A program made the position numbers and the translations under genes. Below are positions 20,317-24,391 of a stretch of DNA of 39,086 nt, in pieces; positions within the stretch are counted from its first letter, which is position 1; each line of letters opens with the position of its first letter. The notes below the pieces were generated by a model, which did not search any database, had not been told where the DNA came from, and saw nothing but the letters and a program-made list of their open reading frames with translations. The stretch lies in contig JAFZSK010000092.1 in NCBI GenBank assembly GCA_017620915.1, positions 1-39,086 of the forward strand. Direction: 5' to 3'. Source of the DNA: Clostridia bacterium (GTDB taxonomy: Bacteria; Bacillota; Clostridia; UBA1212; UBA1255).

Positions 20317-21720
20317 CTATATGCCCAGCAGCCACTTAGCTACGCTGAAGTAGATCAGCAGCGACACCGCGTCAACGATCGTAGTGATGAACGGGCTCGC
20401 CATTACCGCCGGGTCAAATCCGATCTTCTTTGCGAACAGCGGCAGCGTGCAGCCGATGAACTTCGCGATGATGATGGTGAAGCACATCGTGATGCAGACA
20501 ACAAATGCAACCATGAACGAGACGTGCTCATGCAGCAGCAGTCTGTTGATCAGCAGTATCTTCAGGAACGTGGCTACCGCCAGCGAGATTCCGCATAATA
20601 TTGACACCCTTGATTCTTTCCATATTACTTTGAGTATATCGCCGAATTCGATCTCGCCCAGCGACAGTCCGCGGATGATAGTAACAGAAGCCTGGCTGCC
20701 GGAGTTGCCGCCGGTGTCCATCAGCATCGGGATGAAGGCGGTCAGCACGACCTCCGCCTGCAGCGCGTTTTCAAAGCCCGAAATGATCATGCCGGTGAAG
20801 GTGGCCGACACCATCATCAGCATCAGCCAGGGGATACGGCTCTTCCAGATGTTGAACACGGAAGTTTTGAGGTACGGCTTCTCCATGGGCGTGATAGCGG
20901 CCATTTTCGCGAAGTCTTCTTCCGCCTCTTCCTGGATGACGTCGATGGCGTCGTCAACCGTTACGATACCCACCAGCCTGTGTTCGCGGTCCACGACCGG
21001 CACCGCCAGCAAGTCGTACTTTTCAATCAGCTTCGACACGTCCTCTTTGTCCGAGTCGGTGGTGGTGTAGATGACATTGTCATCCATAATGTCCGCGATC
21101 ACCGCGTCCGGCGGGGAGGTGAGCAGCGTCATAACGGTCACCAGACCCAGCAGTTTACGGTTGCGGTCGATCACGTAACAGGTGTAGATGGTCTCTTTGT
21201 TTAATCCGGTCTCGCGAATCTTGGTGAATGCCTCCGCCACCGTCATGCTTTCGGTGAGGTCAACGTACTCGATGGTCATTATACTGCCCGCGCTGTCTTC
21301 GGGGTAGTGCATAATGTCGTTGATCTTCGCGCGGCGTTCGGGGGAGATACTGCGCAGAATACGGCGGACAACGTTGGCGGGCATTTCTTCGATGATGTCG
21401 ACAGTATCGTCAACGAACACATCACTCATGACCCGCTCCAGTTCTTCGTCGGAGAACGCGCGTATCAGCACTTCCTGCTGATCGGTGTCCATTTCTACGA
21501 AGGTGTCCGCGGCCAGTTCTTTGGGCAATATCCGGAAAATAAGAGGTACGTTCTCGATAGGCACCTCTTCCAGCATCATGGCAATATCTGCCGGCTCCAT
21601 ATCTTCCAGTAGTTCTTTGAGTTTTGAGTAATCTTTCTTTTCGATCAGTTCGTAAGCGTGTTCGATCTTTTCTTCCAGCAGATCTTCCGCTTCGGTCGCA
21701 AATTCGATTTCGTCCTGCAT
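20317..21720 (-). CDS. mgtE: Magnesium transporter MgtE
   Basis: 467 residues from ATG at 21720, preceded on the minus strand by AAAGGAAGGAAG; an in-frame upstream ATG at 21783 lacks a ribosome site. The layout is the MgtE family's: an N-terminal superhelical domain (to about residue 130), two CBS domains (about 135-260) that sense cytosolic Mg2+, a plug helix and five membrane helices. The pore signature DTGGNSGSQASVTIIRG is intact. It is a Mg2+-gated channel of the cytoplasmic membrane. The 5' leader of about 245 bases is unusual (see the leader ORF and inverted repeat); the classic M-box core is not recognisable there. Confidence 0.95.
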   Translation of the reverse strand: MQDEIEFATEAEDLLEEKIEHAYELIEKKDYSKLKELLEDMEPADIAMMLEEVPIENVPLIFRILPKELAADTFVEMDTDQQEVLIRAFSDEELERVMSDVFVDDTVDIIEEMPANVVRRILRSISPERRAKINDIMHYPEDSAGSIMTIEYVDLTESMTVAEAFTKIRETGLNKETIYTCYVIDRNRKLLGLVTVMTLLTSPPDAVIADIMDDNVIYTTTDSDKEDVSKLIEKYDLLAVPVVDREHRLVGIVTVDDAIDVIQEEAEEDFAKMAAITPMEKPYLKTSVFNIWKSRIPWLMLMMVSATFTGMIISGFENALQAEVVLTAFIPMLMDTGGNSGSQASVTIIRGLSLGEIEFGDILKVIWKESRVSILCGISLAVATFLKILLINRLLLHEHVSFMVAFVVCITMCFTIIIAKFIGCTLPLFAKKIGFDPAVMASPFITTIVDAVSLLIYFSVAKWLLGI

Positions 21721-21817
21721 AGGCTCTTCCTTCCTTTCGTTCCGGGCATGCCGGTGATCAAGTAAAGGGGGCAGACTGTGCATACGGGACCCTGATGATC
21801 GGTTTCAGAATGCTTAT

Positions 21818-21922
21818 TCAGCAGAAAAGGGCAAAGTGAAACAGATCTGCGCATGGGTGATAAGCGGTGTCGTTGTCAACACTACTTCGCCCGGGTACCG
21901 CACTACTACCTCCGGTATCCAT
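21818..21922 (-). CDS. Candidate 34-codon leader ORF in the mgtE 5' UTR
   Basis: On the minus strand GAGGTG is followed six bases later by ATG (21922-21920) and an open frame of 34 codons ending TGA at 21820-21818. The peptide begins MDTGGSSAVPGRSS, continues with an acidic DNDT segment and ends HPCADLFHFALFC. It lies between the predicted mgtE start site (~21966) and mgtE (ATG 21720), 97 bases upstream of the latter. The start codon and part of the ribosome site are in one arm of an 11-bp inverted repeat whose other arm lies in codons 26-29. A regulatory leader peptide, by analogy with mgtL of enteric bacteria, is an inference; chance occurrence is possible. Confidence 0.4.
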   Translation of the reverse strand: MDTGGSSAVPGRSSVDNDTAYHPCADLFHFALFC

Positions 21923-21931
21923 CTGTTTCAC
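21836..21931 (-). promoter_or_regulatory. Structured mgtE leader RNA: 11-bp inverted repeat enclosing 74 bases
   Basis: On the minus strand GTGAAACAGAT (21931-21921) and ATCTGTTTCAC (21846-21836) are perfect reverse complements. The enclosed segment contains a second hairpin, GUGUUG-ACAA-CGACAC. The arms cover the leader ORF start and codons 26-29. No known riboswitch consensus that I can recall fits. Confidence 0.55.
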
Positions 21932-21972
21932 CTCACAATATGATTGAATTCCACGGTTTGACCGTTGCTCAA

Positions 21973-22002
21973 ATTATAATCTATTTATTAAATTAGTGTC
22001 AA
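21973..22002 (-). promoter_or_regulatory. Strong sigma-A promoter for mgtE
   Basis: On the minus strand TTGACA (22002-21997), an 18-base spacer and TATAAT (21978-21973). The predicted start site is near 21966. The octamer ATTATAAT at 21973-21980 is self-complementary, so a TATAAT is also readable on the plus strand toward the ABC exporter gene, though without a good -35. Confidence 0.8.
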
Positions 22003-22045
22003 CCCCGGATTTTATTAATTGGAGAATTGCGGGAACGCCGGCCTT

Positions 22046-24391
22046 ATGTTATACTATGAACCGTCCGGAGCCGTATTGACCGACCCGGCCGGACACGGAA
22101 ACATGATCGAGATTTCGAAATTCAGAGAAGAAGCGAGCGCGGCACTGCTGAAGCGCGGGATACGGCCGGAAGATATCGTCGTTTTTGCGGAGACGGATCT
22201 TGCCCTTGACCTGAACCACGCAAGTGTTTATATTGTCCTGACGGAAACAAAGCTGTACGTGCTCGAGGGCCAGACCGCGATCTCCGGCCGGCCCGGCAAA
22301 CTGCGCAAAAAAGCCGCGGTGACGCGGACGTTTATTGAAACGGATCTTGCCGAATATGAAAAAGAGCAGGTCAAAAGCCCCGCGATAGAGGAACTGATCT
22401 CCGCGGGATATCTGACAATAGAGTATTCCGGAGGTACGCGGCGGATCGCGGCAATGACCCGCACGGCTATGCGCGATATGCGCCTGTTCGTAAAGTACGC
22501 GGGCAAATATCTGGAAGACGGCAGCACCGAAACCGATCCCGAAGATTTTAAAGATGACCGGTTCTGCCCCAAATGCGGCCGGCGCTACCCGGATCCTAAC
22601 CGCAAGATCTGCCCGGTCTGCATGGAGAAGACTAAAATATATAAACGGCTCCTGCAGTTCTACAAAAAGTACCGGTGGCAGATGCTGGCGGTGCTGTTGT
22701 CCATTACCGCGCTGTCGGCGCTGGGCGTGATCGCGCCGTACGTGTCCACGTCGTTTTTCTACGATAAAATATTGACTCCGGGCACCGGCTGGTTCGGACA
22801 GATCGCGTTCGTACTGGCCCTTATAGTGGGACTGCGGCTGCTCAGCACACTGGTGACGTCACTCACCGGCGTCATTTCCGCACGGGTGTCCGCATACGTG
22901 ACCTATGACCTGAAACGCACGATTTTTACTGCGATCGAGCGGCTGTCGCTGTCGTTTTTTACGGCGCGGCAGACCGGCGGTCTGATGAATCAGATCAATA
23001 ACGACGCCAATACGATCTACTGGTTTTTCTGCCAGGGCGTGCCGGATTTTCTTAAAAATGTGGTGCAGCTCATCGCGGTCTTCGTGATCATGTTTATTAT
23101 GAATCCGCTGCTGGCGGGCTGTGCGGCGGTGATAATGCCGTTGTTCGCTTACGTGGTGTGGCGGATCTACCGGCGCATGACGACGCTGCATCAGCGGCGG
23201 TACGCGAGTTCGCGGTCAATGAACAGCGCGCTCTCCGATGCGTTGTCCGGCTTCCGTGTGGTCAAGACTTTTGCACGTGAAAAGGACGAGACCGAACGCT
23301 TCGACAAACGCTCCCGCCGGCTGGCGAATGATGCCCGCAACGTCACGATCTTCAATAATACGGCGTTTCCGTTCGCGTCGTTTATAATGTACCTCTCGAA
23401 CATCATTATCTGGGCGCTGGGCGGCTGGATGGTGATCACCGGCGCCGGCGGAATGACGTACGGCAAACTGATGGCGTTTATTGCCTACGTGGGGCTGATG
23501 AACGAGCCGATGTTTATGTTCGTTGACATGATCTACTGGTTCTCGGACTGTACCAACGCCGCGGGCAGGCTGTTTGAAATTGCCGATGCCGAACCGGACG
23601 TGACCGAAGCGGAGCAGCCGGTAAGCCTCGGAGAAATGCAGGGCGAAGTGGAATTCCGCGGTGTGGAGTTTTCGTACGACAAAGCGCGCAAGGTGATCGA
23701 CGGCGTTTCGTTTACGGTGGAGCCCGGGGAAACGCTGGGACTGGTCGGTCATTCCGGCGCGGGCAAAAGCACGCTGGCCAATCTGCTCATGCGGCTGTAC
23801 GATGTCAATGCCGGCGAGATACTTATTGACGGCGTCAATATCAAAGAGCTCTCGTTTTCCGAACTTCGCGCTAATGTGGGCATCGTGTCCCAGGAAACGT
23901 ATCTGTTCGTGGGTTCCATTGCGGACAATATCCGGTACGCGCGTCCGGACGCGTCGTTTGAAGAAGTATTGACCGCGGCCCGGATCTCCGGCGCGCATGA
24001 TTTCATCGTCAAGCTGCCGGACGGCTACGATACCAAGATCGGCTTCGGATATAAAGATTTATCCGGCGGTGAACGGCAGCGGCTGTCCATTGCCCGGGCA
24101 GTGCTGCTCAATCCCAAAATACTGATTCTGGACGAGGCTACGGCGGCCATGGACACGCAGACCGAACGCCGTATCCAGGAGGCACTCACACTGCTCTCAA
24201 AAGACCGTACGACGATAATGATCGCACACAGACTGTCGACGCTCCGGGACGCGGACAAACTAGTCGTGATCGAAAACGGCAAGGTGCAGGAGACCGGCAC
24301 GCATAACGAGCTGCTGATCCAGAAGGGCGTTTACAGCAAACTATACACGCTTCAATTAGAAGCGCTCAAGAATATAGGAGTTGAAGAGTGA
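22046..24391 (+). CDS. ABC exporter (membrane domain fused to ATPase) with N-terminal zinc ribbon, first of pair
   Basis: About 781 residues from ATG 22046 (GGGAA ten bases upstream); TTG 22019 would add nine residues. Residues are numbered from 22019. Residues ~30-170 form a beta-rich, possibly PH-like cytosolic domain; a zinc ribbon follows (Cys183, Cys186, Cys198, Cys201); then a six-helix type I exporter domain (about 220-500) and an ATPase with GHSGAGKST, LSGGERQRL, LILDEATAAMD and IAHRLST, all consensus. Exporters of this type pump lipids, peptides or drugs outward. The zinc-ribbon extension is not part of a standard exporter. It is followed one base later by a DUF1854 gene and then a second exporter of the same design, so a heterodimer is likely. 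Substrate unknown. Confidence 0.9.
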   Translation: MLYYEPSGAVLTDPAGHGNMIEISKFREEASAALLKRGIRPEDIVVFAETDLALDLNHASVYIVLTETKLYVLEGQTAISGRPGKLRKKAAVTRTFIETDLAEYEKEQVKSPAIEELISAGYLTIEYSGGTRRIAAMTRTAMRDMRLFVKYAGKYLEDGSTETDPEDFKDDRFCPKCGRRYPDPNRKICPVCMEKTKIYKRLLQFYKKYRWQMLAVLLSITALSALGVIAPYVSTSFFYDKILTPGTGWFGQIAFVLALIVGLRLLSTLVTSLTGVISARVSAYVTYDLKRTIFTAIERLSLSFFTARQTGGLMNQINNDANTIYWFFCQGVPDFLKNVVQLIAVFVIMFIMNPLLAGCAAVIMPLFAYVVWRIYRRMTTLHQRRYASSRSMNSALSDALSGFRVVKTFAREKDETERFDKRSRRLANDARNVTIFNNTAFPFASFIMYLSNIIIWALGGWMVITGAGGMTYGKLMAFIAYVGLMNEPMFMFVDMIYWFSDCTNAAGRLFEIADAEPDVTEAEQPVSLGEMQGEVEFRGVEFSYDKARKVIDGVSFTVEPGETLGLVGHSGAGKSTLANLLMRLYDVNAGEILIDGVNIKELSFSELRANVGIVSQETYLFVGSIADNIRYARPDASFEEVLTAARISGAHDFIVKLPDGYDTKIGFGYKDLSGGERQRLSIARAVLLNPKILILDEATAAMDTQTERRIQEALTLLSKDRTTIMIAHRLSTLRDADKLVVIENGKVQETGTHNELLIQKGVYSKLYTLQLEALKNIGVEE

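Follow-up and report, generated by a model that had tools for sequence, protein, structure and literature searches.

How is the magnesium transporter gene mgtE controlled in a Clostridia bacterium (contig JAFZSK010000092.1) that carries no recognizable magnesium riboswitch before it? Enteric Mg2+ transporters are tuned by leader peptides, and the textbook answer for Gram-positive-type bacteria is the M-box riboswitch. The window, that is, the whole 39,086-nucleotide stretch that was analysed, contains mgtE on the minus strand (20317-21720), encoding a Mg2+ transporter of 467 amino acids (TIGR00400, E=3e-140). Screening of the whole window with 4227 Rfam models at gathering thresholds detected neither an M-box (RF00380) nor any other family, and a permissive search (E<=10) over 21680-22080 yielded no match to the M-box or to another RNA. 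The failure of a first-pass annotation to find an M-box core was thus borne out.

The region upstream of mgtE contains a sigma-70/A-type promoter (TTGACA-18-TATAAT, 22002-21973, minus strand) that matches the consensus at 12 of 12 bases. A leader ORF of 34 codons (uORF; 21922-21818, minus strand; MDTGGSSAVPGRSSVDNDTAYHPCADLFHFALFC), supported by comparison of a family of 53 leaders, begins with an ATG at 21922-21920, 3' of the Shine-Dalgarno (SD) sequence GAGGTG (21934-21929), and ends with a TGA at 21820-21818. The start of this uORF is enclosed in a perfect 11-bp stem, S1, in which the 5' arm GTGAAACAGAT (21931-21921, minus strand), extending from the end of the SD to the AU of the leader AUG, is complementary to the 3' arm ATCTGTTTCAC (21846-21836) near the end of the ORF. 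Promoter, uORF and stem were all as the first-pass annotation had described them. The comparison with relatives indicated that the finding is real and more general than was proposed there. The leader, which precedes Mg2+ transporter genes in about 50 bacterial genomes, has the appearance of a ribosome-operated switch for magnesium uptake that has not been described before.

Two further minus-strand segments define the element. Segment A, the 5' arm of a second pairing (S2), is a conserved block formed by leader codons 4-14 (GGAGGTAGTAGTGCGGTACCCGGGCGAAGTAGT, 21913-21881) that pairs with segment B across families. Segment B (GGGTCCCGTATGCACAGTCTGCCCCCTTT, 21792-21764), recognized by its conservation and by family pairing, is the 3' arm of S2. 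The most informative part of the locus, and absent from the first-pass annotation, B is, across the family, both a partner of the leader codons and an anti-Shine-Dalgarno for the transporter. The translation start region of mgtE (21737-21718, minus strand) comprises the SD AAAGGAAGG at 21737-21729 and the ATG at 21720-21718, as judged by the start frame in relatives. ORF finders would call an in-frame ATG at 21783 (488 amino acids, minus strand). In G001, G002 and G006 this upstream ATG is either separated from mgtE by stops or no longer in frame; the start at 21720 is more likely because relatives lose the frame from 21783. The folding energy of the element was -44.6 kcal/mol (z=-3.3 versus shuffles). 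Just 3' of the promoter lies a small hairpin (ACGGT-CAA-ACCGT, 21953-21965, minus strand) that is conserved in the genus with differing loop bases and is perhaps a 5'-end stabilizer.

Seven genomes of the same genus were compared. Five of these contained mgtE, and the leader was present in all five; in another genus of the same family (G008, G011), mgtE was present without this leader. Two blocks stood out in the otherwise poorly alignable DNA of the same-genus leaders: the uORF start region with codons 2-15, and block B, of which 24 nt (21787-21764) were identical in five species amid diverged DNA and occurred once per genome. The frame of the leader ATG was kept within the genus, with the indel inside the conserved part being three bases long and the sole single-base insertion lying 5' of the ATG. 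An in-frame GTG three codons 5' of the ATG was discarded as the start, since G006 has one extra base between the two and the ATG frame is the conserved one. By eye, block B could itself encode a second leader peptide (MHSLPPL..). The frame was not conserved, and this reading was rejected because pairing with both the leader core and the SD accounts better for B across the family.

The wider search proceeded from a uORF-start pattern to a class-wide pattern and then to sequence-only models, R1 followed by R2. The uORF-start pattern gave one more leader in a different order, again before mgtE. Model R2 identified 34 of 391 genomes of the class at E<=6e-7, followed by a gap to 5e-5, and 12 further genomes at E<=1.4e-6 among 398 genomes of the phylum. 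All R2 matches at E<=1e-4 lay upstream of mgtE or of a Mg2+ P-type ATPase gene, with 20-350 nt between the uORF stop and the transporter gene. Nearly all inspected matches with E>1e-4, and L027, fell inside unrelated genes and were discarded. The resulting family numbered 53 leaders, spread over 52 genomes that represent several orders and extend outside the class. The downstream gene was mgtE in 42 cases, an mgtA-type Mg2+ P-type ATPase gene in 11 and another gene in none; transporter identity was checked by HMM in a sample of ten, among which L101 had no match at the strict threshold and was assigned by eye. As judged from its presence in five of five same-genus genomes with mgtE and its recurrence before Mg2+ transporter genes in other orders and beyond the class, this predicted leader is more than a chance arrangement. 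A mobile element was rejected as its origin, since it occurs in one copy per genome (two in G404) and always before the same genes; a search of viral contigs for the leader gave no match. Within the open-access papers searched, the family was undescribed.

Because the search models covered only the first ~48 bases after the ATG, ORF length, the S1 3' arm and segment B were not selected for by the search. All 51 non-identical leaders encoded uORFs of 22-43 codons, and all 51 had an SD. The probability that every uORF would reach at least 22 codons was ~1e-18 against dinucleotide shuffles, a comparison that is weak for a single leader (p ~0.25) and decisive for the set alone. Among 42 distinct N-termini the peptide start followed the consensus M[DE][AST]G[SG][SN]S, and the mean entropy of codons 2-6 was 0.53, 0.51 and 1.33 bits at positions 1, 2 and 3, respectively. 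Asp or Glu occupied position 2 in 41 of the 42, mostly as a single acidic residue, and there was no proline run. Conservation spanned only ~7 N-terminal residues and did not extend to the C-terminus. Searches of seven leader peptides against Pfam and NCBIfam profiles (E<=10) returned no match. On these comparative grounds, coding selection on the predicted uORF was shown, and throughout the family a conserved uORF with the marks of translation precedes one kind of gene, as is required of a uORF attenuator.

The stem over the leader start was equally general. In each of 51 leaders, the stretch between the SD and codon 3 found its partner in a segment beginning 45-93 nt downstream (mean z -3.7), and S1 covered the SD and AUG in all clades. 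Own arms fitted better than foreign arms (p=6e-10, with related leaders treated as independent). Compensation was evident as a G-C to A-U double change, the 3' arm being ATCTGTTTCAC in the window and ATTTGTTTCAC in G003, and RNAalifold returned S1 unaided in two clades. The first-pass annotation had made its proposal depend on the ORF frame and compensatory pairs in relatives, and both were conserved. Measured from where the S1 3' arm ends, the uORF stop fell at -11 to +35 nt, with a median of 5 nt. Since the stop tracks this arm, ORF and structure are nearly coextensive, and any ribosome that translates the ORF must open S1.

Segment B had two alternative partners. Pairing of leader codons 4-14 with B just 3' of the uORF (A:B) was found in many lineages, with own segments fitting better than foreign ones (p=8e-13 with related leaders treated as independent; p=1.2e-7 over 24 families). 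Lineage-specific compensation was seen as CATAAGCC/GGCTTATG in G337, CACAAAT/ATTTGTG in G133 and CACAAAATCTGA/TCAGATTTTGTG in G404. Comparison of B with the SD/start region of the transporter gene gave the same preference for own partners (p=5e-5 with related leaders treated as independent; p=0.003 over families). The two pairings competed for at least 5 bases of B in 44 of 50 leaders. Unguided RNAalifold of ten related leaders returned S1 together with B paired to the transporter SD/AUG, with compensatory changes. Several clades with 300-nt spacers (e.g., G234 and G191), and G078, had no convincing A:B or B:SD pairing. By comparison across leaders, the S1 and A:B pairings predicted here were shown to covary.

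At the family level, then, the leaders contain mutually exclusive pairings, one of which closes the ribosome binding site of the main gene, whereas in the window alone neither pairing beat shuffles (A:B z -0.7; B:SD z +0.8). Both pairings are plausible in the window, where they are supported by the invariant B block and by the family. These duplex energies ignore geometry, and S1 and A:B may hinder each other sterically, as hardly any linker separates the 5' arm of S1 (S1a) from A. One leader (L039, in G150) has a terminator-like hairpin, GCGGCTATGCGGGTATTTTATACCCATACAGCCGCTTTT, between the uORF stop and B; this copy may also act on transcription.

Rfam was also used to scan 40 loci of relatives. 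The uORF region itself was unmatched, and an M-box was present upstream in some loci only. Of the mgtA-type loci, 9 of 9 had it immediately before the uORF, as did 1 of 31 mgtE-type loci; some of the loci scanned included only ~400 nt of upstream sequence, so that a distant M-box could be missed there. The M-box-bearing leaders were L110, L107, L038, L116, L051, L052, L101, L113, L105 and L109, and the sole mgtE-type copy behind an M-box among those scanned was G404b. The order in these loci was M-box, usually a terminator-like hairpin, and then the uORF. The M-box before mgtA-type copies strongly supports a magnesium link of the leader. Together, M-box and uORF leader would constitute tandem control by two unrelated Mg2+-linked leaders. 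Before most mgtE genes the uORF switch seems to work on its own, whereas before mgtA it seems to form a second stage that follows the M-box. Genome G404, which carries two leader copies (L051, L116), one before mgtA and one before mgtE and both behind M-boxes, is convenient for testing. Of the peptide-plus-structure Mg2+ control suggested by the first-pass annotation, the conserved uORF and structure stood, only mgtE or mgtA follows, and many copies lie behind M-boxes; the Mg2+ response itself is the presumptive part.

We consider it probable that the uORF leader is a leader-peptide translational attenuator of Mg2+ transporter genes. The order of segments, S1a (uORF SD and AUG), A (codons 4-14), S1b (uORF end) and B (3' of the uORF), and the shared use of B point to such a device, and this predicted switch architecture is well supported by comparison. 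S1a:S1b pairing would close the start of the uORF itself, and B would pair with one of two partners, A or the SD/start region of the transporter gene (mgtE or mgtA). Translation of the uORF would melt S1 and cover A, leaving B free to shut the transporter start (OFF). If the uORF were untranslated, or if the ribosome aborted early, A would capture B and the transporter would be translated (ON). S1 and A:B might form together as a pseudoknot or alternate. Since B is complementary to the transporter SD/start, the output is probably translation of mgtE and goes beyond re-initiation on the leader.

The direction of the switch, the role of the peptide and Mg2+ as the signal are what we infer from this architecture and its setting. 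The likely abort trigger at low Mg2+ would be the N-terminus, M-[D/E]-x-G-[S/G]-[S/N]-S, with its acidic second residue. That low Mg2+ halts leader translation through this acidic, Gly/Ser-rich N-terminus is suggested by the target genes, by the enteric leaders mgtQ and mgtL, and by the tandem M-boxes. A tentative extension of the attenuator reading is that the nascent M[DE]xG[SG][SN]S makes the ribosome abort or stall according to Mg2+, with a pseudoknotted leader converting this event into MgtE or MgtA translation. The family might then represent a widespread undescribed class of ribosome-based sensor, sometimes forming a second layer behind an M-box.

Among the alternatives, an ion or ligand riboswitch survives best, although we regard it as unlikely. 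In this reading S1 and A:B would fold into an H-type pseudoknot aptamer for Mg2+ or another ligand, which would pass B to the transporter SD or withdraw it, the reading frame being incidental. The order S1a-A-S1b-B is that of an H-type pseudoknot, the core nucleotides of A are strongly conserved, and the M-box is a precedent for the control of these genes by Mg2+ riboswitches. However, an aptamer needs neither third codon positions that are far more variable than the first and second, nor 51 of 51 frames open across the element with an SD before each, nor a uORF stop that tracks the S1 3' arm.

Self-limiting initiation, in which S1 forms after the first ribosome, was the function that the first-pass annotation had proposed for the stem. 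Taken as the whole explanation, with the peptide as the product, a small protein whose target would be MgtE or the membrane, it appears improbable. The start-sequestering S1 was conserved over the SD and AUG in every clade, and the N-terminus is conserved at the protein level, as this reading would have it. The restriction of that conservation to ~7 residues is unlike MgtR/MgtS-type small proteins, and a stem acting as a mere limiter of initiation leaves B and its complementarity to the transporter start unexplained. Transcription attenuation or Rho-dependent termination under uORF translation, as in enteric mgtA or corA, in place of control of transporter translation, is about as doubtful, for despite the terminator-like hairpin between uORF and B in G150 and the M-box copies with a terminator before the uORF, no terminator-like site was found between uORF and mgtE in the window, and B is complementary to the transporter SD/AUG.

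In function, the closest analogue of the proposed attenuator is mgtQ of Salmonella (PMC8092293), an 8-codon uORF between mgtC and mgtB with Asp2 and Glu5. It has been found in enterobacteria and a few relatives, and ON requires that mgtQ be translated (PMC8092293). Like mgtQ, the leader is a short uORF before a Mg2+ transporter gene with an acidic residue at position 2, and an anti-RBS segment has two partners, an upstream segment or the transporter RBS. Unlike this leader, mgtQ lacks the MDAGSS peptide, differs in the layout of its competing segments and occurs in different taxa. In the leader described here, moreover, the uORF start is itself sequestered and the ORF contains the anti-anti-SD; under the proposed model the untranslated state would be ON.

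Translation attenuators of the erm/cat type respond to ribosome-binding antibiotics. They share with the leader a leader peptide, start sequestration and an anti-SD with two alternative partners, whereas the targets here are Mg2+ transporters only. The enteric leaders mgtL, mgtP and corL act mainly on transcription, by attenuation or Rho, and rely on Pro codons. As in these, a uORF and alternative RNA structures precede Mg2+ transporter genes, and the acidic second residue recurs in MgtL; unlike them, the present leader lacks Pro runs and points to SD sequestration. The mgtCBR leader is an enteric leader-peptide example (PMC3641672). Among enteric leader peptides, the leader has no recognised relative.

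Like the M-box (RF00380), the leader would exert cis-acting RNA control of Mg2+ transporter genes, and the mgtA-type copies share the order M-box-uORF with Mycobacterium tuberculosis, in which the M-box controls a uORF that is the regulated product (PMC12810186). The uORF element is distinct from the M-box and is conserved as a module in its own right. The mgtE motif, a riboswitch candidate described only in Thioalkalivibrio, resembles it as a structured RNA upstream of mgtE that includes the SD and AUG, with a stem holding the start of the main gene and no uORF reported (PMC11109978); it is a different RNA. By sequence comparison, the family indicates that, across a wide range of Clostridia-type genomes, mgtE or mgtA would be under the control of a leader peptide that carries its own switchable RNA, either alone or together with an M-box. 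Here is a small and testable instance, outside enterobacteria, in which the ribosome itself would sense magnesium, and it draws attention to a conserved motif at the N-terminus of the peptide with a putative ribosomal effect.

In four leaders (L055, L073, L076 and L117), a second, proline-rich short ORF ([MV]DPVPLP.. or MDSGPLP..) was noted, by eye only, ~200 nt after the first uORF. A CCATAACTACTCCTCC-like stretch further downstream is complementary to the SD and start of this second ORF, GGAGGTGGTAGTTATGG, and the peptide resembles MgtL (..PTPLP..).
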